A stretch of 64,000 bases of DNA, taken from NCBI RefSeq assembly GCF_040218225.1, contig NZ_JAVJQO010000006.1, positions 186,001-250,000 on the forward strand, in the 5' to 3' direction. Source of the stretch: Gracilimonas sp. GTDB lineage: Bacteria > Bacteroidota > Rhodothermia > Balneolales > Balneolaceae. This document shows, piece after piece, positions 28,985-40,787 of this stretch (position 1 is the stretch's first letter; the number at the start of each line of letters is the position of its first letter). The notes below the pieces were generated by a model that did no database searches, was not told where the DNA came from, and was given only the letters and a program-made list of their open reading frames with translations. The position numbers were made by a program, and so were the translations under genes.

Positions 28985-31405
28985 TTAATAAATAGCCGGA
29001 AAGCGCTCCGTATCTGCCTTTCGCATCATTTCGTAAATTGCTTCGAAGATATCCTCGGCGTTGGGCTTGCTGAAGTAATCTCCATCAGAAGCGTAGGCCG
29101 GACGGTGGTCATGAGCTGTCAGGCATTTTGGTTCTGAATCCAGATCAAAATATCCACCCTGCTCTTCGAGTACCTTATGCAATATGTACGCCGAAGCTCC
29201 GCCCGGAACGTCTTCATCCACAATTAAGAGACGATTGGTCTTACTGAGTGATTTTCCAATTACATGATCCAGATCAAAAGGCATAAGCGTTCTCACATCA
29301 ATCAGCTCGATGGAAATTCCGGCATCCTCAAGTTGCGGTATAATGCTTTCCACAATATTGAAGGTCGATCCATATGAAACTACCGTAATATCGTTTCCTT
29401 CGTTGATTATCTCAGGTTTGCCAAGCGGCGTCGTGAATTCACCTAAATTGGAAGGCATATCTTCTTTGAGGCGGTATCCATTCAGAGGTTCAACAATAAT
29501 CGCAGGATCATCTCCCTGCAGTAATGTATTGTAGAATCCGGCTGCTTCCGTCAGATTTCTCGGAACACACAAATGCACACCCCGGGCTCCGCTGGTTATC
29601 ATTCCCATTGGGGAACCTGAGTGCCAGATTCCTTCGAGTCGGTGGCCACGAGTTCTTACAATTAATGGCGCAGCCTGCCCTCCTTTAGTTCGATATCGGA
29701 GTGTAGCAAGATCATCCGAAATTCCCTGAAAACAATACAAAAGATAATCCAGGTACTGAATCTCAGCAATGGGCCGAAGTCCGCGAATCGACATCCCAAT
29801 TCCCTGTCCTAAAATCGTAGCTTCACGGATTCCGGTGTCGCTCACGCGAATCTCGCCGTATTTATCCTGCATTCCTTCCAGTCCTTTATTCACGTCACCA
29901 AGTTTCCCAGAGTCTTCTCCAAAAACCAGTGTATTCGGATATTTCTCAAAAATAGCATCAAAGTTTTCGCGAATAACCAACCGGCCATCCACACGTTCCG
30001 GATCTTTAGGATATTCCGGCTTCACCTCTTCTATGTTCAATGGTGAATATGGAGTCTGGCTATATAAATGAGAATTATAGCGCTCTTTATTTTCTGCCCT
30101 ATAATCGCTGACCCAATCAGCCAGTTCCTGGCGTGCAGAGCCCTTTTTACCCGCTGTTACCGCCAACGACTTTCGAGCCGCTGACAAAATATCTTTGCGC
30201 ATTGCATTCGGGTAATTCTTAAGTTTTTTAGCAAAGTCACCCAGTTTCTCAACACCACTTTCGTCTTTCAGTTTATTGATCAGATCAATAACAGTGGATT
30301 TCTCTTTTTTTATGGGGTCCATGAACGCTTTCCAGGCTGCTTTCTTGGCTTCATTGATTTCATCCTGTGCCTCTTCTTCCAGCTTATCCAGTTTATCAGC
30401 CGTAGCAATATCATTCTCTAAAATCCATTGGCGAAGTCGTTCAAGGCAACAATACTCTTCTTCCCACTTCAGTCTTTCTTCTGATTTATAGCGCTCATGT
30501 GAACCGGAAGTGGAATGTCCCTGTGGTTGTGTTACTTCCTGTACATGAATTAAAACCGGCACGTGCTCTTCACGCGCAATCTTTTCCGCTTTTTGGTAAG
30601 TCTCGATGAGTGCCTCATAATCCCAGGCTTTTACCCTCAGAATTTCATACCCATCTTCATCCTTGGTTCTCTGGAATCCTTTGAGTACCTCAGAAATATT
30701 CTCTTTGGTAGTTTGGTATTTCTTAGCCACAGAAATACCAAAGCCATCATCCCAAACCGACATGATAATGGGCACTTGCAAAACACCGCCTGCGTTGATG
30801 GTTTCCCAGAATACTCCCTCAGAAGTACTTGCATCACCGATGGTACCGAAAGCTACTTCATTTCCTTTATTGGAAAACTTCTTCCATTCCTTGCCTTTCA
30901 GCGCTTTCTCGTTACGGTATACCTTAGAGGCTTGAGCCAGTCCTAAGAGACGTGCCATTTGTCCGGCTGTTGGCGAAATATCTGAAGCCGTGTTTTTGGA
31001 TTTGGTTTGATCAATCCAGTTGCCCTCATTATCCACCAAGCGAGTTGCAAAGTGGGAATTCATCTGTCTTCCGGCTGAATTTGGATCGGCTTCTACATCA
31101 GCGTGGGCATAAAGCTGTGCAAAAAGCTGTTGGGGAGTTACTTCCCCTATTGCCATCATAAAAGTTTGGTCTCGATAATAACCGGATCGGAAATCACCAT
31201 TCTTAAAAACTTTGGCCATTGCAATCTGCGGCACTTCCTTTCCATCTCCAAATATCCCGAACTTGGCTTTTCCGGTGAGTACTTCTTTTCTACCGATCAG
31301 CGACATATGCCGGCTTACCCAACCCAGTTTGAAATCTGCAAGGATTTCCTTTTTCTGAGCAGCGGTAAACTTACTTTTTGTCGTCTTTTCTTTTACTTGA
31401 GCCAT
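28985..31405 (-). CDS. 2-oxoacid dehydrogenase E1, alpha and beta subunits fused
   Basis: An 806-residue thiamine-diphosphate enzyme for oxidative decarboxylation of a 2-oxoacid, probably branched-chain or pyruvate. Residues 1 to about 450 are E1-alpha-like: FGIFGDGKEVPQIAMAKVFK, FRSGYYRDQTFMMAIGE and the ThDP region GDASTSEGVFWETINAGG...DDGFGISV. Residues about 470-806 are E1-beta-like: VIRENFDAIFEKYPNTLVFG, PIAEIQYLDYLLYCFQGISD, GHRLEGIWHSGSPMG and IELIDVRTLMPFDLDHV. Alpha and beta are usually separate genes of about 340 residues each; single-chain forms occur in Bacteroidota. No E2 or E3 gene lies nearby. Confidence 0.92.
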   Translation of the reverse strand: MAQVKEKTTKSKFTAAQKKEILADFKLGWVSRHMSLIGRKEVLTGKAKFGIFGDGKEVPQIAMAKVFKNGDFRSGYYRDQTFMMAIGEVTPQQLFAQLYAHADVEADPNSAGRQMNSHFATRLVDNEGNWIDQTKSKNTASDISPTAGQMARLLGLAQASKVYRNEKALKGKEWKKFSNKGNEVAFGTIGDASTSEGVFWETINAGGVLQVPIIMSVWDDGFGISVAKKYQTTKENISEVLKGFQRTKDEDGYEILRVKAWDYEALIETYQKAEKIAREEHVPVLIHVQEVTQPQGHSTSGSHERYKSEERLKWEEEYCCLERLRQWILENDIATADKLDKLEEEAQDEINEAKKAAWKAFMDPIKKEKSTVIDLINKLKDESGVEKLGDFAKKLKNYPNAMRKDILSAARKSLAVTAGKKGSARQELADWVSDYRAENKERYNSHLYSQTPYSPLNIEEVKPEYPKDPERVDGRLVIRENFDAIFEKYPNTLVFGEDSGKLGDVNKGLEGMQDKYGEIRVSDTGIREATILGQGIGMSIRGLRPIAEIQYLDYLLYCFQGISDDLATLRYRTKGGQAAPLIVRTRGHRLEGIWHSGSPMGMITSGARGVHLCVPRNLTEAAGFYNTLLQGDDPAIIVEPLNGYRLKEDMPSNLGEFTTPLGKPEIINEGNDITVVSYGSTFNIVESIIPQLEDAGISIELIDVRTLMPFDLDHVIGKSLSKTNRLLIVDEDVPGGASAYILHKVLEEQGGYFDLDSEPKCLTAHDHRPAYASDGDYFSKPNAEDIFEAIYEMMRKADTERFPAIY

Positions 31406-33215: not shown

Positions 33216-34340
33216 TTAAAGCTCTTTCGAGTACATTCGGTAGGTCTTATCCAAAGAACCCCCGATGCGTTCAGCTACGCGAATCATTTCAGGGTTTGAT
33301 TCCAGAATCCAGCTGAGTTCGGAAACGGTTTTACCTTCGGTTTCCAGTCCATTTTGGATAGAACGCTGATGGAGAAGGGCATCGATTCCTTTGCCCTGCC
33401 ATTCCGGTAGTACGCCCATTAATGCTGTCCGGAGTCCTTTTACCCGGCTTTTACCCCAAAGGAGCTTGATAAATCCAAATGGAAAGAGTTTTCCATTCAT
33501 CCCCTTGAGAATTTCATTGATATTGGGAAGTCCAATGGAAAAAGCTACCGGTTCACCTTTTATCTCCGCGATATGAGCATAATCCGTATCTACAATCATT
33601 TTAAGGTCTTTACCCGCTGCCTGGAATTCTTCTTCGGTTAGCGGGATGAAGCCCCAATTATCTTTCCAGGCCTTATTAAAGATTTCCCGGACAATTTTAA
33701 TCTCGGAATCCATCTTTTTCAAATTTACCGGACGGATATTCAAATCAGGAAGTCGCTTCTTAACTATTTCCATCGCCCGGTTCATGCGATCTACAGCTAC
33801 CGTTTCAGTATCCACGATATAGGCATACATATCCATTTCTTTACTGAATCCGGCGTTCCTGATCAGCTCATCATAATAAGAAAAGTTGTATGGCATCATG
33901 ATATATGGATCTTTATCAAAACCGTCAATCAAAACACCAATAGTGTCCATCATACTGGGACTGGCCGGTCCCACTACTTTATTCATTCCCTTATCGCGAA
34001 GCCAGTCTTCAGCTACACGGAATAGTAAATTCGTGGTATGCTGATCATTTATACTTTCGAAAAAACCGAAATGGCCGGTTTTTGTACCATGAAATTTATT
34101 AAAGCGATGATCTATAATAGCAGCTATTCGCCCGACGTCTTTGCCGTCTTTCTCGGCTATGAATAAAGCTATTTCAGCATTATTGAAGAAAGGATTCTTG
34201 TTGGTATCAATCAGTTTTTTCTGATCCATTCTGAGTGGCGGCACCCAATGTTCTTCGCCTTCATAAAATGGATAAATGAAATTGGTAAATCGTTTCTTTT
34301 CCTCTTTGGTTGAAACGAAGGTTACCCCTGAACTATTCAT
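33216..34340 (-). CDS. GNAT-fold acyltransferase-like protein, candidate ceramide synthase
   Basis: A 374-residue protein resembling the GNAT superfamily but about twice the usual length, suggesting two GNAT-like halves. The N-terminal half has NFIYPFYEGEEHWVPPLRMD and EIALFIAEKDGKDVGRIAAI. The C-terminal half has MGVLPEWQGKGIDALLHQRS, an acyl-CoA-binding-like loop (QGKGID) and LSWILESNPEMIRVAERIGG. It starts 23 bases after the serine palmitoyltransferase stop on the same strand. In Caulobacter the bacterial ceramide synthase is a long GNAT-type protein encoded near Spt. By analogy this gene may N-acylate the sphingoid base. The linkage is seen; the activity is inferred. Confidence 0.75.
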   Translation of the reverse strand: MNSSGVTFVSTKEEKKRFTNFIYPFYEGEEHWVPPLRMDQKKLIDTNKNPFFNNAEIALFIAEKDGKDVGRIAAIIDHRFNKFHGTKTGHFGFFESINDQHTTNLLFRVAEDWLRDKGMNKVVGPASPSMMDTIGVLIDGFDKDPYIMMPYNFSYYDELIRNAGFSKEMDMYAYIVDTETVAVDRMNRAMEIVKKRLPDLNIRPVNLKKMDSEIKIVREIFNKAWKDNWGFIPLTEEEFQAAGKDLKMIVDTDYAHIAEIKGEPVAFSIGLPNINEILKGMNGKLFPFGFIKLLWGKSRVKGLRTALMGVLPEWQGKGIDALLHQRSIQNGLETEGKTVSELSWILESNPEMIRVAERIGGSLDKTYRMYSKEL

Positions 34341-34363
34341 ACAGCCTGGATCAGATTATTATA

Positions 34364-35602
34364 TTATTCAATTGCTGAATGACCATTTCTGTCGATCACG
34401 CCATGCTTTAAACCAACTTTACGGAAAGCTTCCAAAATTTGGTCAAGATGTTCATCTGTATGACTGGCCATATAACTGGTTCTCAATAGAGATTGCCCTT
34501 GTGGCACAGCCGGAGGAACAACAGCATTTGTATAAACGCCTTCCTCAAACAGATCTTTCCAGAATTTGAAACAGCTCATCATTTCCCCAATTACAACAGG
34601 GATAATTGGACTTTGACTACTCCATACATTAAATCCTAATGCGCGCAGTTCTTTGCGCATATAATTGGCTATTTCCTCAAGGCGTACTAACCTCCAGGGT
34701 TCCTCCTGAAGAATTTCCAGAACTTTAAGTACGGTAGCAACATTGGCCGGCGGCATGGATGCACTAAAGATATGCGCCGGTGATTTATGGCGAATGTATT
34801 CAATTACAGGACGATCACCTACCAAAAACCCTCCTAAAGAGGCGAATGATTTTGAGAACGTTCCGCTGATTAAATCGACTTCATCGGTCAGGCCAAATAC
34901 AGAGGCTGATCCCCTTCCACCTTCACCAACAACTCCAATAGCGTGAGCATCATCAAGATATAGGCGGGCATTAAATTCTTTGGCTAGTTTTACCAGTTCA
35001 GGTACTTTAGCCAGTGTTCCTGACATGGAGAAAACCCCATCTGTTACAATGATTTTTCCGGCATCAGGGTCGGCCCGTTCCAGAAGCTTTCGAAGCTGAT
35101 CCATATCGTTATGTTGATAACGCATAGTTTTTGCATTCGAAACAAGGGTACCAACAACAATACAAGCGTGATTATCCTTATCCGAAAAAATAATATCGTT
35201 ACGATCAGCTATAGTCTGTATAGAGCCTTCATTGGTTTGATAGCCGGTACTGAAAAGCACACACCCTTCCTTACCCATAAACTTGGCTAATTTATCCTCC
35301 AGCTCGAGGTGACTGTCGAGCGTACCATTTAAGTAGCGGGAACCTGTACAACCGGTTCCATATTTTTTAAGCGCATCTTGTGCAGCTTTAATAGTACGCT
35401 GATCGTTGGTGAGGCCTAAGTAATTATTAGACCCAGCCATAATTACTTTTTTGCCTTCAATTTCAACTATGGTACCATCGGTGGCTTCGAGAGGTTTAAA
35501 GTACGGATACAGCCCCATCTCTTTGACTTCATCCGCTTTTGTAAAATTAAAAGCCTTGGAAAAAATGTCTGATTTTGTGGCGCTGGATTTTTTATCGGCC
35601 AT
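34364..35602 (-). CDS. spt: serine palmitoyltransferase (alpha-oxoamine synthase family)
   Basis: Condenses L-serine with a fatty acyl-CoA or acyl-ACP to a 3-keto sphingoid base, a PLP-dependent first step of sphingolipid synthesis. ATG at 35602 gives 412 residues. The N-terminal LYPYFKPLEATDGTIVEIEG and VIMAGSNNYLGLTNDQRTIK, then YGTGCTGSRYLNGTLDSHLE closely match Bacteroidota Spt. The PLP lysine is in SGTFSKSFASLGGF and the cofactor Asp/His in LYLDDAHAIGVVGEGG. The SxxMPPANVAT stretch also fits Spt. BioF or Kbl are the alternatives, but no biotin or threonine genes are nearby. A promoter-like element lies 37 bases upstream. Confidence 0.88.
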   Translation of the reverse strand: MADKKSSATKSDIFSKAFNFTKADEVKEMGLYPYFKPLEATDGTIVEIEGKKVIMAGSNNYLGLTNDQRTIKAAQDALKKYGTGCTGSRYLNGTLDSHLELEDKLAKFMGKEGCVLFSTGYQTNEGSIQTIADRNDIIFSDKDNHACIVVGTLVSNAKTMRYQHNDMDQLRKLLERADPDAGKIIVTDGVFSMSGTLAKVPELVKLAKEFNARLYLDDAHAIGVVGEGGRGSASVFGLTDEVDLISGTFSKSFASLGGFLVGDRPVIEYIRHKSPAHIFSASMPPANVATVLKVLEILQEEPWRLVRLEEIANYMRKELRALGFNVWSSQSPIIPVVIGEMMSCFKFWKDLFEEGVYTNAVVPPAVPQGQSLLRTSYMASHTDEHLDQILEAFRKVGLKHGVIDRNGHSAIE

Positions 35603-35638
35603 TCGGTAATTCCTTAACAAAGATTCTAAATAAACAGC

Positions 35639-35669
35639 GAAATATAGCCAGTATTAAATTTCTATCAAA
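35639..35669 (-). promoter_or_regulatory. promoter-like element before spt
   Basis: On the minus strand TTTG (35669-35666), a 19-base spacer and TATATTTC (35646-35639) match the -33/-7 consensus with one change (C for the final G). The -7 box is 36 bases before the ATG at 35602. Confidence 0.55.
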
Positions 35670-35810
35670 TTTTCGCTAACTCGTTATTACGAACTGATCG
35701 CTGTAAAATAAGTTCAAATTTCGTGCTGAAGATAAGAAATATATCGGTCTGCTACTGAATTCTAAAAGTGTAATTAACATCAAAATTCACAGAATTCAAA
35801 AATTCTGCTT

Positions 35811-36992
35811 TCAGCGTTTATAAAGCTGTTTTTTTTGTTCTACTAACTGCTCGTATTTATTAAAAAGAAGTTTGAAATGATCATCCATTGTTCCTATTTC
35901 TTCTTGAGCAGCCGTTTTGCATGCTTCAACCATCTCCTCTCTGTCTCTTGAGGTAATATCAAGCAGGGCACCTTTTAAGGATTCCGAGTTTCCGGCTTTA
36001 AAGGTTTCGGCAATATCAGGATTGGCAATATCACCAGCCCCTCCCCTTTTGGGAACAACCACAGGCAAGCCACTGCAAACTGCCTCGGCCACTACAATGC
36101 CATACGTTTCTGCTGATGAGCCATGAACAAAATAATCGCATGAAGCGAGGATATTTGCCAGTTCATCGCGGTTTTCCGTAAAACCCATCAGCTTAACATG
36201 CGGAGTTTTGTTCGCTTTAAAATCCACATACTTTCGTATGGGTCCGTCGCCGAAAACAATCAGTGCCATTGGCTTTTCTTCCGCGGCTGCATGAAAGCCA
36301 TCGATTAGAGAGCCCAGTCTTTTTTCGGGGTGATGACGACTTATGGCAATCATCAATTTAGCTGATTCAGGCAACCCAAAATCTGCTAATAGTTTTTTCC
36401 GGAGCTCTGTATCTCTTCTGCCAGGAGAAAAGAAATCTTTATCTATTCCAAATGGGACTGGGATTGGGTTATGCACTCCATAATTATCAATGCGTTCGCC
36501 CAACCATTCGCCACTTACAATGGTCGCATCAAAATTATTGCTGAGCCGCTGGAGGTACTTCCAATAGAAACCAAACAGCTTGTCAACCCGATCAAAGCCG
36601 AGCATATTTCCAAATATAGTATGAGGGTAAGCAGCAACCGGATCCTGATGAAAAATGAAGGTCTTAACAGCCTCTCCTTTCCATCTGCCAGCAAACCATC
36701 CACCCGTCCAGGGGGAGGAACCCTCAACCACATCAGGATTTTCACGATCCAAAATTTCATGAACGGCTTTTTCGCGCCACAAAATATAATAGCGCCAGTC
36801 TACCGGTAGGCGCGGGCCTTTAACCCAAATCACCCTTCCTCCATAGCGTTCTTCTTCTCCCCAATCCTCACCAGGAGCAACGATTACAATTTCATGGCCA
36901 TGTTTTTTCCCAGCCTGCAATTTTTGGTTGATGTAGGTTTTTACCCCACCTCCCTGATCTGTATAAAATTCGGCGACGTCAATGATTTTCAT
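35811..36992 (-). CDS. GT4 glycosyltransferase
   Basis: A retaining GT-B enzyme of 393 residues. The N-terminal VAEFYTDQGGGVKTYINQKL holds the glycine-rich acceptor-domain loop. The second domain has MIAISRHHPEKRLGSLIDGF, ALIVFGDGPIRKYVDF and HGSSAETYGIVVAEAVCSGLPVV, the last holding the donor-binding E-x7-E. The long insert mentioning FIFHQDPVAAYPH is family-typical of lipid-type GT4 enzymes. It is encoded 13 bases after the next GT4 gene and 208 bases before spt, all on the minus strand. A glycolipid, possibly a glycosylated ceramide, is a reasonable product, but the acceptor is not shown. Confidence 0.85.
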   Translation of the reverse strand: MKIIDVAEFYTDQGGGVKTYINQKLQAGKKHGHEIVIVAPGEDWGEEERYGGRVIWVKGPRLPVDWRYYILWREKAVHEILDRENPDVVEGSSPWTGGWFAGRWKGEAVKTFIFHQDPVAAYPHTIFGNMLGFDRVDKLFGFYWKYLQRLSNNFDATIVSGEWLGERIDNYGVHNPIPVPFGIDKDFFSPGRRDTELRKKLLADFGLPESAKLMIAISRHHPEKRLGSLIDGFHAAAEEKPMALIVFGDGPIRKYVDFKANKTPHVKLMGFTENRDELANILASCDYFVHGSSAETYGIVVAEAVCSGLPVVVPKRGGAGDIANPDIAETFKAGNSESLKGALLDITSRDREEMVEACKTAAQEEIGTMDDHFKLLFNKYEQLVEQKKQLYKR

Positions 36993-37005
36993 GAACTAAA
37001 ATTTT

Positions 37006-38166
37006 TTATAGATAGGTTTGTGGCACCGGAAGTTCTAACGCTTCTTTGTAATTCTGCACCAGCTCACCATTAATCTCATCCCACTCATATTGTACTGCCT
37101 TGTCACGGGAGGCTTTCTTCATTTTGTTACGAAGATTTGAATCAGAGACGATAATGGCTAATTTTTTGGCAAAATCTACTTTGTTCTCGGGTTCAGCTAG
37201 TCCTCCATTCACTCCGTGTTCAACCAGGGATTTACTTCCTGTAGCATCAGCAACCAGACAAGGCAACCCACTACTCATGGCTTCCAGAGTAACATTTCCA
37301 AAAGTTTCGGTATGAGATGGAAAAAGGAATACATCACTGCTAGCATAAGCTCTTGCCAGGCTTTCCCCTTCCAGAAATCCGGTATAATGTGCTTCAGGCA
37401 TTAATCTCTGTAATTCTGCTTTAGCAGGTCCATCACCTACAACCAGCGCCTTAACTTTTGAATTTTTAGATGCTACTTGCTGCACACTATGCCGAAAGGT
37501 ATCCAACTCTTTTTCCCAAACAAGCCGGGATACAAAGGTCACAATAATATCATCGTCTTCAAATCCAGCACCTCTCCTCCATTCCAGGTCTCTTTTTTCA
37601 GGTGAAAACAATTTTGTATTTACTCCTCTTGCCCAAATTTTCATGCCTTCATTAAAGCCATGAGTTTCCAATTCGTCAATCATTGACTGTGACGGCACAT
37701 ACACATGAGAACAGGAATTGTAAAACCAGCTCAAATACCGCCAGGCAATAAACTCAATAGGCGTGAGACCATAATACTTGAAGTAGCTTGTAAAATGTGT
37801 GTGATAGGAACCAACTACCTGAACATTATTTTTTTGTGCCCACAACAATGCCTTATATCCGGCCAGGTCTGGCGTTGCAATATGAACAAGAGTTGGATTG
37901 AAGTCTTCCAGTTCCTTAATTGACCTGGCTGAAATCCCTATTGGTACTCTATACTCTCCACGCCCAGAAACAGGCATCCTAATGGAGGGAACTGAAACCA
38001 AGCGCCCATTATGTTCGAGCGCCGGCTCTTTTACTGTTGGACCAAATACCAAAACTGGTATTCCCTGATCTTCTAAATATTTCACCAACCGATTCAACGT
38101 AAGCGAAACACCGTCTTTGATGTGATTATAGTTGCCTGTAAAAAGGGCGACTCTTAATTCTTTCAT
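37006..38166 (-). CDS. GT4 glycosyltransferase, lipid mannosyl/glucosyltransferase-like
   Basis: 386 residues with a GT-B fold. VALFTGNYNHIKDGVSLTLN contains the N-terminal glycine loop. LVHIATPDLAGYKALLWAQK and VVGSYHTHFTSYFKYYGLTP are typical of the GDP-mannose-dependent MgtA/PimB group, which glycosylates diacylglycerol or phosphatidylinositol. FVSRLVWEKELDTF, ALVVGDGPAKAELQ and FPSHTETFGNVTLEAMSSGL (E-x7-E) complete the donor domain. It is the first gene of the GT4 pair and is divergent from the SDR at 38273 by 106 bases. Substrate is unproven. Confidence 0.86.
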   Translation of the reverse strand: MKELRVALFTGNYNHIKDGVSLTLNRLVKYLEDQGIPVLVFGPTVKEPALEHNGRLVSVPSIRMPVSGRGEYRVPIGISARSIKELEDFNPTLVHIATPDLAGYKALLWAQKNNVQVVGSYHTHFTSYFKYYGLTPIEFIAWRYLSWFYNSCSHVYVPSQSMIDELETHGFNEGMKIWARGVNTKLFSPEKRDLEWRRGAGFEDDDIIVTFVSRLVWEKELDTFRHSVQQVASKNSKVKALVVGDGPAKAELQRLMPEAHYTGFLEGESLARAYASSDVFLFPSHTETFGNVTLEAMSSGLPCLVADATGSKSLVEHGVNGGLAEPENKVDFAKKLAIIVSDSNLRNKMKKASRDKAVQYEWDEINGELVQNYKEALELPVPQTYL

Positions 38167-38272
38167 AAAAATTTAAAAGCAGAAGGTAGATTTGTATCTT
38201 AATTACTCGGCGATGATTTTCGCTGAAAACTCTTTTTTTATCCTAAACAATTCGCCAAATATAAGGAAATAA

Positions 38273-39247
38273 ATGAAAGCCTTTGTAACCGGAGGAACAG
38301 GTTTTATTGGAAGTCACCTGGTTGAAGCTTTAATCAAATCTGAAGACTATGACGAGGTTCGATGCCTGGTAAGAAGTGACGAGAAATGGCTGGCTGGGCT
38401 AAACTTCAAAAAGATCTCCGGAGATCTTCAAAACCTTAACGCTTTATCGAAAGGACTTGAAGGTGCGGATGTAGTATTTCACATTGCCGCTATCGTAAAA
38501 GCTCCCACAAAAAAAGAGTTTACTCATGCGAATGTAGATGCCACCGAAAACTTAGTGCGACTAGCCCAGAAAAAGGGCGTCAGGAATATGGTGATTTTAT
38601 CTTCATTGGCGGCAGCAGGTCCTAGTAAAGGATCCCCAAAAACTGAAGGTGAACCCATGAATCCGGTGAGTATGTACGGTGAGTCAAAAAAAGAGATGGA
38701 AGCCCGCATCAAGAAAGCCGTTGGTAAAGATGACAGTATTAAAATCATCCGCCCGCCTGCTGTTTACGGACCTCGTGAAGATCAGATTTACTCTTTCTTT
38801 CAGGCTTTTTCAAAAGGAATCTGCCCTATCGTAGGCGATGGGAACAATCCCCGTGTTTCAATGGTGTATGTAAGTGACTTAGTAATAGGAATTATGCAGG
38901 CGGCTCAAAAAAAGGATACTGGCATACATACCTATTTTATCTCCGGTGAAGGCACCCATTCCTGGAATGAGATTCGTGCCATTACTTCTAAAGTAATGGG
39001 TAAAAAAGCCATCCCGATTAAGATTAAACCTAAGTTGGTTAAGAAAGCGGCAACTGTAATTGAAAATGTAGCATCATTAATTGGGAAATATCCCGTTATT
39101 AATAAAGAAAAAGCTAATGAGTTAATTCTGGAGTGGACTTGCTCCTCAGAAAAAGCTCAAAAAGAATTAGATTACGATCCCAAAGTTTCACTGGCAGAAG
39201 GAATCTCCAGAACAGTCCACTGGTATAAAATGCATAATTGGTTATAG
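38273..39247 (+). CDS. NAD(P)-dependent epimerase/dehydratase-type SDR, candidate ceramide reductase
   Basis: An extended SDR of 324 residues. VTGGTGFIGSHLVEALI is the Rossmann motif at residues 5-21, DVVFHIAAIVKAPT the adenine-pocket strand and MYGESKKEMEA the YxxxK-like active site (Y-G-E-S-K). The C-terminal region FISGEGTHSWNEI and DYDPKVSLAEGISRTVHWYK resembles dihydroflavonol reductase/3-beta-HSD relatives that reduce or oxidise lipids and alcohols. In Caulobacter the ceramide reductase CerR is annotated as this type. Its place opposite the GT4-spt group makes that role possible; sugar epimerisation is the alternative. The next gene starts 4 bases after its stop. Confidence 0.85.
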   Translation: MKAFVTGGTGFIGSHLVEALIKSEDYDEVRCLVRSDEKWLAGLNFKKISGDLQNLNALSKGLEGADVVFHIAAIVKAPTKKEFTHANVDATENLVRLAQKKGVRNMVILSSLAAAGPSKGSPKTEGEPMNPVSMYGESKKEMEARIKKAVGKDDSIKIIRPPAVYGPREDQIYSFFQAFSKGICPIVGDGNNPRVSMVYVSDLVIGIMQAAQKKDTGIHTYFISGEGTHSWNEIRAITSKVMGKKAIPIKIKPKLVKKAATVIENVASLIGKYPVINKEKANELILEWTCSSEKAQKELDYDPKVSLAEGISRTVHWYKMHNWL

Positions 39248-39251
39248 TATT

Positions 39252-40787
39252 ATGAAATTTATTGTAAGGATTACCCTGATATTCACATTTACTTTCATCT
39301 CTTATGCTCAGGTACACGGACAAGAGAAATTAGTCCAGAATTATTCCCGAATGATGGAAATTCCGGACGTTTCAGCAATGGAATCCTCTCCTACACATCT
39401 TTATATATTGTCTGAAAGTGAAGGGATGGCTGTTTTCAGAGCCTACCCGGATTCATTGCAATGGCTTTATACTTCTTCGGGTATGCAACGCAGGGGAAAC
39501 AAGATCATGGCAGATATCCGCTTTGCTTACCTCTTCGGTGACTCCAGAAGACTTACGGTTCTGGAACCCACTTCGGTGTTGGGAGTCTATTCCTCCACTA
39601 TTTTACCGGCTCAACCCAGAGCTGCGGCTCGCTTGAAGAACAGTTTGTACATAGCGTTAGGAGAAGAAGGACTGGGACGCATTTCACTTGAGTCGCCGGA
39701 GTCGGTAGATTCTGATCCCGAGTCTGTAGCTAAGAATCAGATAAAAGGAGCTGAAGTTTTAGATTTACGATCGTCCAACGTGAGCAATCAGCTATTTGTG
39801 TTAACGGATGCTCCTTCCTTACTTGTTTTTAATCAACAGGACAGTACCCTTCGTATTTCAGAAAACATTTCTCTGCGAAAGCCCCTCGAACAAATTTTTA
39901 TAGATCAGGAACGGGTTTGGGGAAGCACTGTAAACGGGGAGATCTTTGAGATAAGATCATCGGGAACGGGGAAAAGAATTGGAGTTACCAATGAGTCTGT
40001 AAATCATATCTCAAGCTGGAATGGAAGGTTGTTTGTAAGAACAGCTTCAGGTCGGGTATGGACCACTGATGAATCTGGTCTTCTTGAAATATGGAAAGAT
40101 GATCAAAGCGCCGGGAATTATCTGGCCAACAGCGCTAGCCGAATTTGGATTTCAGAAAATGATAATATTTCTGAAATCATCCTGAAGGAAAAAAGAACCA
40201 ATGATTCACCTGTTACATCTGGTGACTTTAAAATAAAGAGTATCCCAAATCAGGTTATCACCTATCCAAATCCACTTATTTTAGCCTTTGAAATGGAAGG
40301 CAATTATCCCGCAGGACAGGTTGAGTTTTCTTATCGGTCGAATGCACAAAACGCTAAGATCCGAAAGCAGGGGTTTTTCTGGCAGCCAACAGTAAATCAG
40401 GTTGGAAATTTTTGGTTTAATATTGTCGCCACCAATGCCGAAGGTCAATCGGACAGCACCCGCTTTGTTGTAGATGTACGTTCTTTTAATGCCCCTCCCC
40501 GTTTTAGCCCTGTCCGTTCTACTTCTATTGCAGTAAATGAAAAGTATATCCTTCAGTTTAATGCAACCGACCCCGAAAATCCTCAAAATTCATTAGTCAG
40601 ATATATTGGGGTTGATATGCCTGATGGCGCAACTATTAATGAAAAGACCGGTGAATTTACCTGGACCCCAACTGAACGACAGGTAGGAGAATCTACGTTT
40701 AAAGTGATCGCAACAGACAGACTTGGAGCTGCATCTTCCATTGATGTAACTTTAAACGTTCTCAACATCTCCCGTAGTGGTGAATAG
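39252..40787 (+). CDS. exported protein with putative Ig-like (cadherin/He_PIG) repeats
   Basis: 511 residues. Signal peptide MKFIVRITLIFTFTFISYAQ is followed by a beta-propeller-like region (LYILSESEGMAVFRAYPDSL, RLTVLEPTSVLGVYSST, GEEGLGRISLES) to about residue 310. Two Ig-like modules follow. The second has FNATDPENPQNSLVRYIGVD, PDGATINEKTGEFTWTPTER and STFKVIATDRLGAASSIDVT, the He_PIG/cadherin-type consensus. There is no C-terminal sorting domain or membrane anchor. It is probably periplasmic or surface-exposed, mediating binding. It shares an apparent transcript with the SDR before and mutY after (24 bases). Confidence 0.8.
   Translation: MKFIVRITLIFTFTFISYAQVHGQEKLVQNYSRMMEIPDVSAMESSPTHLYILSESEGMAVFRAYPDSLQWLYTSSGMQRRGNKIMADIRFAYLFGDSRRLTVLEPTSVLGVYSSTILPAQPRAAARLKNSLYIALGEEGLGRISLESPESVDSDPESVAKNQIKGAEVLDLRSSNVSNQLFVLTDAPSLLVFNQQDSTLRISENISLRKPLEQIFIDQERVWGSTVNGEIFEIRSSGTGKRIGVTNESVNHISSWNGRLFVRTASGRVWTTDESGLLEIWKDDQSAGNYLANSASRIWISENDNISEIILKEKRTNDSPVTSGDFKIKSIPNQVITYPNPLILAFEMEGNYPAGQVEFSYRSNAQNAKIRKQGFFWQPTVNQVGNFWFNIVATNAEGQSDSTRFVVDVRSFNAPPRFSPVRSTSIAVNEKYILQFNATDPENPQNSLVRYIGVDMPDGATINEKTGEFTWTPTERQVGESTFKVIATDRLGAASSIDVTLNVLNISRSGE

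Follow-up and report, generated by a model that had tools for sequence, protein, structure and literature searches.

Ceramides are membrane lipids of a kind found in animals, and the Bacteroidota are known sphingolipid makers. The Balneolales, an order of mostly salt-loving bacteria, include the Gracilimonas-like bacterium whose DNA we analyzed here as one 64-kb stretch (the window; the genome amounts to 3.54 Mb in 11 contigs). At 33216-39247, the window carries five genes, for a serine palmitoyltransferase (Spt)-like condensing enzyme, a tandem-GNAT acyltransferase, two GT4 glycosyltransferases (GTa and GTb) and an extended short-chain dehydrogenase/reductase (SDR), and the question they raise is whether the locus makes a ceramide and whether that ceramide is glycosylated. 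An earlier note on this DNA had read it as a probable sphingolipid or glycosphingolipid locus. We find it highly probable that this is a ceramide (dihydroceramide) biosynthesis cluster, a judgment that covers the ceramide part of that claim. The reading is based on family membership, order-wide clustering, co-occurrence across the phylum and Spt-GNAT fusion elsewhere; the substrates, the order of the reactions and ceramide as acceptor of the glycosyltransferases are what we infer.

In the pathway that we propose, Spt would form 3-ketosphinganine from serine and a long-chain acyl-CoA. The tandem-GNAT protein would then use another acyl-CoA to N-acylate the amine, probably that of the keto product itself, and the SDR would reduce the 3-keto group to yield dihydroceramide, with the two GT4 enzymes as candidates for adding one or two sugars to the product. 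All five open reading frames lie where the earlier note had placed them, on the same strands and in the families that it named (Table 1). Its claim that the enzyme classes sit within 6 kb holds as well, since the three ceramide genes span 6.0 kb.

Table 1. Genes of the cluster, the gene that follows it and fused open reading frames elsewhere in the phylum
Feature	Position	Strand	Basis or remarks
Tandem-GNAT N-acyltransferase, predicted bCerS/aca/YghO family, 374 amino acids	33216-34340	-	YghO homology, fold model
Spt, 412 amino acids; pyridoxal phosphate Lys in TFSKS; Ala at SulA Lys281 position	34364-35602	-	Tree, residues
GT4 glycosyltransferase GTa	35811-36992	-	Glyco_transf_4/Glycos_transf_1
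GT4 glycosyltransferase GTb	37006-38166	-	Glyco_transf_4/Glycos_transf_1
Extended SDR, predicted ceramide reductase CerR/epi; TGGTGFIG and YGESK motifs	38273-39247	+	Divergent from GT/Spt/GNAT; Epimerase/3Beta_HSD
Ig-like domain protein, likely N-terminal signal (by eye)	39252-40787	+	He_PIG 2e-15
Fused Spt-GNAT	L114:6091-8583; L115:5703-8090; L116:5851-8313		Open reading frames read

Assignment of the three predicted ceramide enzymes

The earlier note had named a phylogeny against BioF and Kbl as the check on the condensing enzyme. In a maximum-likelihood tree of 32 rows, with long branches for Eco_BioF, Eco_Kbl and Str_SPT (a Streptomyces row), we found that the product of 34364-35602 joins all Spt rows (support 95/93), in a clade that excludes both Kbl/BioF (96/88) and the rows of cysteate-acyltransferase type (100/100). 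Its closest solved relatives are two chains of Spt, 8guh and 3a2b (416 bits), which we take to be from Sphingobacterium multivorum, and the next, at 297 bits, is a Kbl/BioF enzyme. The protein belongs to the Pfam family Aminotran_1_2, and its best NCBIfam model is SerpalmtaseCFB (NF047600), at 499.2 bits with a curated cut-off of 640; because this cut-off is not reached, the name Spt is given on the tree and the residues. SulA, a sulfonolipid enzyme, is described as having Lys281 where Spt has Ala (PMC9304779). That column holds Ala in 34364-35602 and in 72/72 Spt-like loci, Lys in a second host enzyme (L006), in 28eh (named cysteate-C-fatty acyltransferase) and in 7u7h, a clade mate that bears another name in the database than 28eh, and Thr or Asn in the BioF and Kbl rows. 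Asn53, His140, Lys251 and Arg376 (SulA numbering; residue set from PMC9304779) are conserved in 34364-35602. By its position in the tree and its residues, it is a serine palmitoyltransferase rather than a cysteate acyltransferase, BioF or Kbl. At E ≤1e-60, this superfamily has three members in the host genome: the Spt, a SulA-type enzyme and a BioF-like one.

The GNAT product is 38.6% identical to E. coli YghO (373 columns, full length, E 6e-85), and yghO is listed as an aca homologue of Caulobacter CC_1154, a predicted acyl transferase needed for dihydroceramide (PMC9386255). Searching plasmid records with the GNAT gave 44 records, including E. coli YghO and a Sphingomonas parapaucimobilis N-acetyltransferase, while in Pfam it matches Acetyltransf_1 weakly. 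A structure model (pLDDT 90.3) has a tandem GNAT fold, with 7q3a as the best match (Z 25.2, root-mean-square deviation 3.3, 304 residues); an acyl-CoA N-acyltransferase could have this fold, which is common to many acyl- and acetyltransferases, although neither chain length nor function can be deduced from it. Ceramide synthase does not appear among the matches listed in the fold comparison, which is uninformative, and when solved structures were searched with a profile of the GNAT alignment, only weak matches came up (best E 0.0014). Sequence, neighborhood in other phyla and co-occurrence agree with the bCerS/aca family for the GNAT and with the CerR/epi family for the SDR, as the earlier note had supposed for both, and we predict a bacterial ceramide synthase and a ceramide reductase, respectively.

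For the SDR, we built a CerR reference profile from six SDRs of Spt clusters, leaving out the window SDR. In the host genome the window SDR matches this profile best, at 268.6 bits, 205 bits ahead of the runner-up (63.6), so that the window SDR is the only strong CerR-like protein of the genome. The best match reached 262.9-319.1 bits in 15/15 Spt-positive genomes, picked for having no window-like SDR beside Spt, and 91.6-170.2 bits in 15/15 picked Spt-negative genomes.

Conservation of the cluster

An Spt orthologue (E ≤1e-153, two partial) was found in the host genome and in 55/56 other genomes searched; the remaining one (G011, 86% complete) gave paralogue-level matches only. From these 56 genomes we fetched 40 Balneolales regions, all 40 of which keep the order GNAT-Spt-GTb, and 39 of which keep the divergent SDR, the contig ending before the SDR in the 40th (L078). 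The survey of gene neighborhoods suggested in the earlier note thus finds GNAT-Spt-GT4 with a divergent SDR kept across the order, so that the arrangement is not due to chance. Since mutY and other neighbors are conserved too, part of this conservation is ordinary synteny.

A set of 80 named loci was split by Spt identity into 63 of Balneolales type (at least 76%) and 17 others (at most 72%). The GNAT comes directly after Spt, in the same orientation, in 79/80 (with one gap of 2.7 kb), the exception being a contig end, and this includes 17/17 loci from non-Balneolales Rhodothermia. Counts of GTb and SDR were limited to loci with 3.9 kb or more of upstream flank, namely 49/63 of Balneolales type, and 49/49 carry GTb together with a divergent SDR; the 14 loci with shorter flanks have both in six cases, GTb only in three and neither in five.

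At the level of the phylum, 32 of 40 regions hold Spt, and 19 of these 32 have a same-strand GNAT that adjoins Spt or is fused with it. The SDR lies divergently beside Spt in 12 regions (L118-L121, L132, L133, L140, L142, L144, L149, L150 and L153), and Spt, GNAT and SDR are consecutive in L146. Order and phylum regions were hand-picked, mostly for long contigs and spread, with fusion candidates deliberately included, and the region, genome and named-locus sets share genomes, so that their counts are not independent. On plasmids of Rubrobacter and Streptomyces, the genes for Spt, GNAT and SDR directly follow one another; on that of Aureispira, the SDR is transcribed divergently from Spt-GNAT, with identities to the window of 49.9% (Spt), 37.6% (GNAT) and 36.3% (SDR), and on an E. 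coli plasmid the GNAT lies in the same cluster.

Co-occurrence, fusion and the order of reactions

The best GNAT scores of 247 Bacteroidota genomes have a bimodal distribution, with no values between 9.5e-55 and 2.7e-80. Strong GNAT and Spt (E ≤1e-95) are both present in 183 genomes and both missing from 57, while two have the GNAT only (G118, G129) and five Spt only (G079, G087, G254, G266, G274). GNAT and Spt counts were both taken from per-genome rows; for Spt, 39 genomes without a match were identified by their absence from the 188 listed. The Fisher p value for the pair is 2e-47, uncorrected for relatedness, and the threshold was set after the gap in values had been seen, both of which lessen its weight.

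In three genomes of the phylum, Spt and GNAT form a single open reading frame (830, 795 and 820 amino acids) with both halves matching. We found the fused frame uninterrupted in 12/13 genomes from four genera in the order of one of them (G245), the 13th (67% complete) having no match, and in one genome outside that order (G170). Because it is uninterrupted in so many genomes, the fusion is not an assembly error. A separate GNAT is retained in 10/12 fusion genomes. A literature search gave no paper on an Spt-acyltransferase fusion, which is thin evidence of novelty.

Authors openly disagree on the order of the two steps that follow condensation when bacteria make ceramide, and one group puts acylation before reduction (PMC11087976). 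The co-occurrence of Spt and GNAT and their fusion favor acylation right after condensation. The fusion suggests that the GNAT acts on the Spt product, before reduction; it is suggestive only, as fused enzymes need not act consecutively. The alternative is a eukaryote-like order in which the SDR first reduces 3-ketosphinganine and the GNAT then acylates sphinganine, as other authors hold for Caulobacter; Bacteroides is reported to have a 3-ketosphinganine reductase, BT_0972 (for both, PMC9386255, PMC10865984, PMC10191378, PMC11087976). We consider reduction first rather unlikely here, given that Spt and GNAT are one protein in another Bacteroidota order and that the GNAT follows Spt in nearly all named loci, whereas the SDR is divergent or elsewhere.

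Alternative readings of the cluster

Several observations weigh against a ceramide role, in addition to the two limits of the co-occurrence test. Three NCBIfam Spt models all stay below their cut-offs on the condensing enzyme (499/640, 390/500, 310/670), and the GNAT has no NCBIfam match; its top folds are acetyltransferases (7q3a, glucosamine N-acetyltransferase and mycothiol synthase; Z 25-22), and N-myristoyltransferases rank lower (Z 16-17). Spt and GNAT are not adjacent in 13/32 phylum-level Spt regions, and a window-like SDR is absent from the available flank in 17/17 non-Balneolales Rhodothermia loci. Caulobacter CerR is reported to be periplasmic (PMC11087976), and the N-terminus of the window SDR has no evident signal peptide by eye, no predictor having been used. 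Finally, as the host also has a cysteate-acyltransferase-like enzyme, sulfonolipid synthesis might be a second use of the GNAT and SDR.

That the condensing enzyme is a BioF/Kbl paralogue of general metabolism with coincidental neighbors would fit the high scores of the Kbl and BioF NCBIfam models (386 and 380 bits); the host's BioF-like gene, however, is located elsewhere (L005), and tree and synteny contradict the idea, which we regard as exceedingly improbable. BioF/Kbl identity itself is ruled out by the tree and the residues. A cluster making capnine-type sulfonolipids instead of ceramides would have a precedent in Salinibacter, presumably of the same class as the host. Titles in a reference list (PMC9304779) have Salinibacter making sulfonolipids, and the host genome does contain the SulA/CapB-like enzyme L006 (G000:C4:56958-58181; L006:1375-2601), with 28eh as its best solved relative. 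L006, however, is encoded apart from the cluster, on a different contig (C4); at position 281 it carries the diagnostic Lys where the window Spt has Ala, and the two fall in different clades. Moreover, among 52 Spt-negative genomes with a cysteate-type enzyme, 48 have a weak GNAT relative, four have none and none has the strong type. We therefore judge a sulfonolipid cluster very unlikely, and 34364-35602 as a sulfonolipid enzyme is ruled out by its Ala. Since L006 has the diagnostic Lys, the host likely makes sulfonolipids alongside ceramides; within the 247-genome set, a cysteate-type enzyme (E 1e-115) was found in 0/5 genomes of other Balneolales families.

The GT4 pair is a different matter, and the glycosphingolipid part of the earlier claim has at best an even prospect. 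GTb was found in 145/145 genomes of the class (Rhodothermia) searched, and it lies away from Spt in all six non-Balneolales Rhodothermia that we opened; within about 5 kb of it there, no window gene was found besides GT4 relatives. Because GTb is class-wide and unlinked to Spt in those six genomes, its placement may be inherited synteny, and these points tell against a ceramide role for the pair. In two of the six genomes (L271, L272), GTb is followed by a GT4 that is 36-41% identical to the Balneolales proteins in the slot of GTa and then by an MMPL transporter; GTb directly adjoins an MMPL gene in L275, and in L276 it is followed by a GT4 26% identical to GTa. GTb and its GT4 partner thus look like a unit that is old in the class and, in Balneolales, is located inside the ceramide cluster. 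GTa orthologues are confined to the host genus (8/8 regions among the 40 fetched), and in the other 32 regions its slot holds a different GT4 in 27 and none in four, with one (L068) left out of the comparison because the longest frame of its slot is on the wrong strand.

The pair may accordingly be a class-wide glycolipid or glycan unit lying between Spt and CerR by chance, outside ceramide metabolism, to which we give an even chance. The class-wide presence of GTb, its surroundings in the six genomes with MMPL neighbors in three, and the scores of both window GT4s, whose top NCBIfam model is a phosphatidylglycerol glycosyltransferase far under its cut-off (151 with 480 bits required), favor it. 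Distribution, however, is unable to separate this from a ceramide role, as every Rhodothermia genome of the phylum-wide search has Spt, while GTb lies between Spt and SDR in nearly all Balneolales regions and in all Balneolales-type named loci with enough flank. In some other Rhodothermia, moreover, a different glycosyltransferase family is directly upstream of Spt, namely PF13528 in L123 and L125 (by Pfam), with relatives in 4/17 non-Balneolales named loci. Ceramide as acceptor of the GT4 pair we rate somewhat below even, and a glycosylated ceramide is a plausible product. The two stay candidate ceramide glycosyltransferases, as the earlier note had proposed: they lie in the cluster across the sampled Balneolales, while in the six other Rhodothermia opened GTb and, in two loci, a relative of its partner occur without this linkage. 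A specific recruitment of GTb to the ceramide cluster is weakened by its presence throughout the class. The MMPL genes near GTb relatives (L271:7561-10083, L272:7370-9907, L275:6082-8652) would fit an exported lipid product.

The genomes also gave two observations on other acyltransferases. In G109, a weak GNAT relative lies about 100 bp from a cysteate-type gene, and such weak relatives are a possible lead to the sulfonolipid N-acyltransferase. The host genome encodes a second tandem-GNAT protein (G000:C3:46020-47165; L269:1486-2634) with close relatives (E ≤1e-70) in 16/247 genomes, all of the host family. We dropped it as a candidate for the sulfonolipid N-acyltransferase, since the cysteate-type enzyme is present in 30/30 genomes of the same family.

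Comparison with known systems

Caulobacter crescentus has the same three enzyme families as the window (Spt, bCerS/CC_1154 and CerR/CC_1164), a comparison made through E. coli YghO and Sphingomonas and Roseomonas relatives rather than Caulobacter sequences. Two sequential ceramide glycosyltransferases, Sgt1 and Sgt2, are known there (PMC6445935), and the window has its GT4 pair. Caulobacter-type Spt uses a dedicated carrier protein and an acyl-ACP synthetase (PMC9386255). Among the seven window proteins scanned, none is an acyl-ACP synthetase, and the gaps from fumC to mutY (at most 208 bp) are too short for a carrier-protein gene; for both, the rest of the genome was not searched. By NCBIfam and solved structures, the window Spt is of the Bacteroidota type found in Bacteroides and Sphingobacterium. 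The three ceramide genes of Bacteroidota have been remarked not to lie close together (PMC11334938), with homologues in B. fragilis named as BF9343_4218 and BF9343_4240 (PMC10865984), whereas in the window all are within 6.0 kb. The Rubrobacter, Streptomyces and Aureispira plasmids resemble the window in having Spt and GNAT adjacent with the SDR next to them but, unlike it, have no GT4 pair between Spt and SDR. The Bacteroides fragilis alpha-galactosylceramide synthase BF9343_3149 is a GT4 that acts on ceramide (PMC9692976), likened to the window enzymes by family only.

Gene layout and neighboring genes

The intergenic gaps are 23 bp (GNAT/Spt), 208 bp (Spt/GTa), 13 bp (GTa/GTb) and 106 bp (GTb/SDR), and with 208 bp between them, the GT4 pair and Spt-GNAT may be transcribed separately in this species. 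Scans of promoters (15 sites, 18.5 in shuffles) and terminators (7 sites, 7.8 in shuffles) gave no excess. The Spt frame stays open up to a TTG at 35620, and the ATG at 35602 is the likelier start. The gene for an Ig-like domain protein starts 4 bp past the SDR and lies beside it in 39/40 Balneolales regions; it is probably co-transcribed with the SDR, its product is probably secreted, and its membership in the cluster is uncertain.

Two genes below the GNAT, at 28985-31405 on the minus strand, lies a gene for a fused E1 alpha-beta 2-oxoacid dehydrogenase, which possibly supplies branched-chain primers. In other Balneolales families an E1 fusion directly follows the GNAT, as identified with NCBIfam and Pfam in L060 and through weak tblastn matches in the others. 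A gene like that of a branched-chain aminotransferase is directly 3' of the GNAT in L119, L120, L132, L150 and L153 (L132 confirmed by NCBIfam, the other four by a similar start sequence) and could feed iso-branched acyl chains.

Implications

The pathway is known, and what is new and well supported is the compact, order-wide cluster. The "notable extension" of the earlier note holds for this arrangement and is otherwise mild, Bacteroidota being established as sphingolipid makers already. A literature search for Balneola and sphingolipid found nothing on the subject, judged by titles. Beyond the cluster itself, we put forward a wider proposal tentatively, at clearly less than an even chance: Spt and the tandem GNAT, as a 3-ketosphinganine N-acyltransferase, would be one Bacteroidota-wide unit, to which the Balneolales add a reductase and a ceramide-glycosylating GT4 pair, the host making sulfonolipids separately. 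The fused Spt-GNAT protein makes the disputed order of steps directly testable in vitro and could settle the dispute. Altogether, the cluster predicts ceramides, perhaps glycosylated ones, in the Balneolales.

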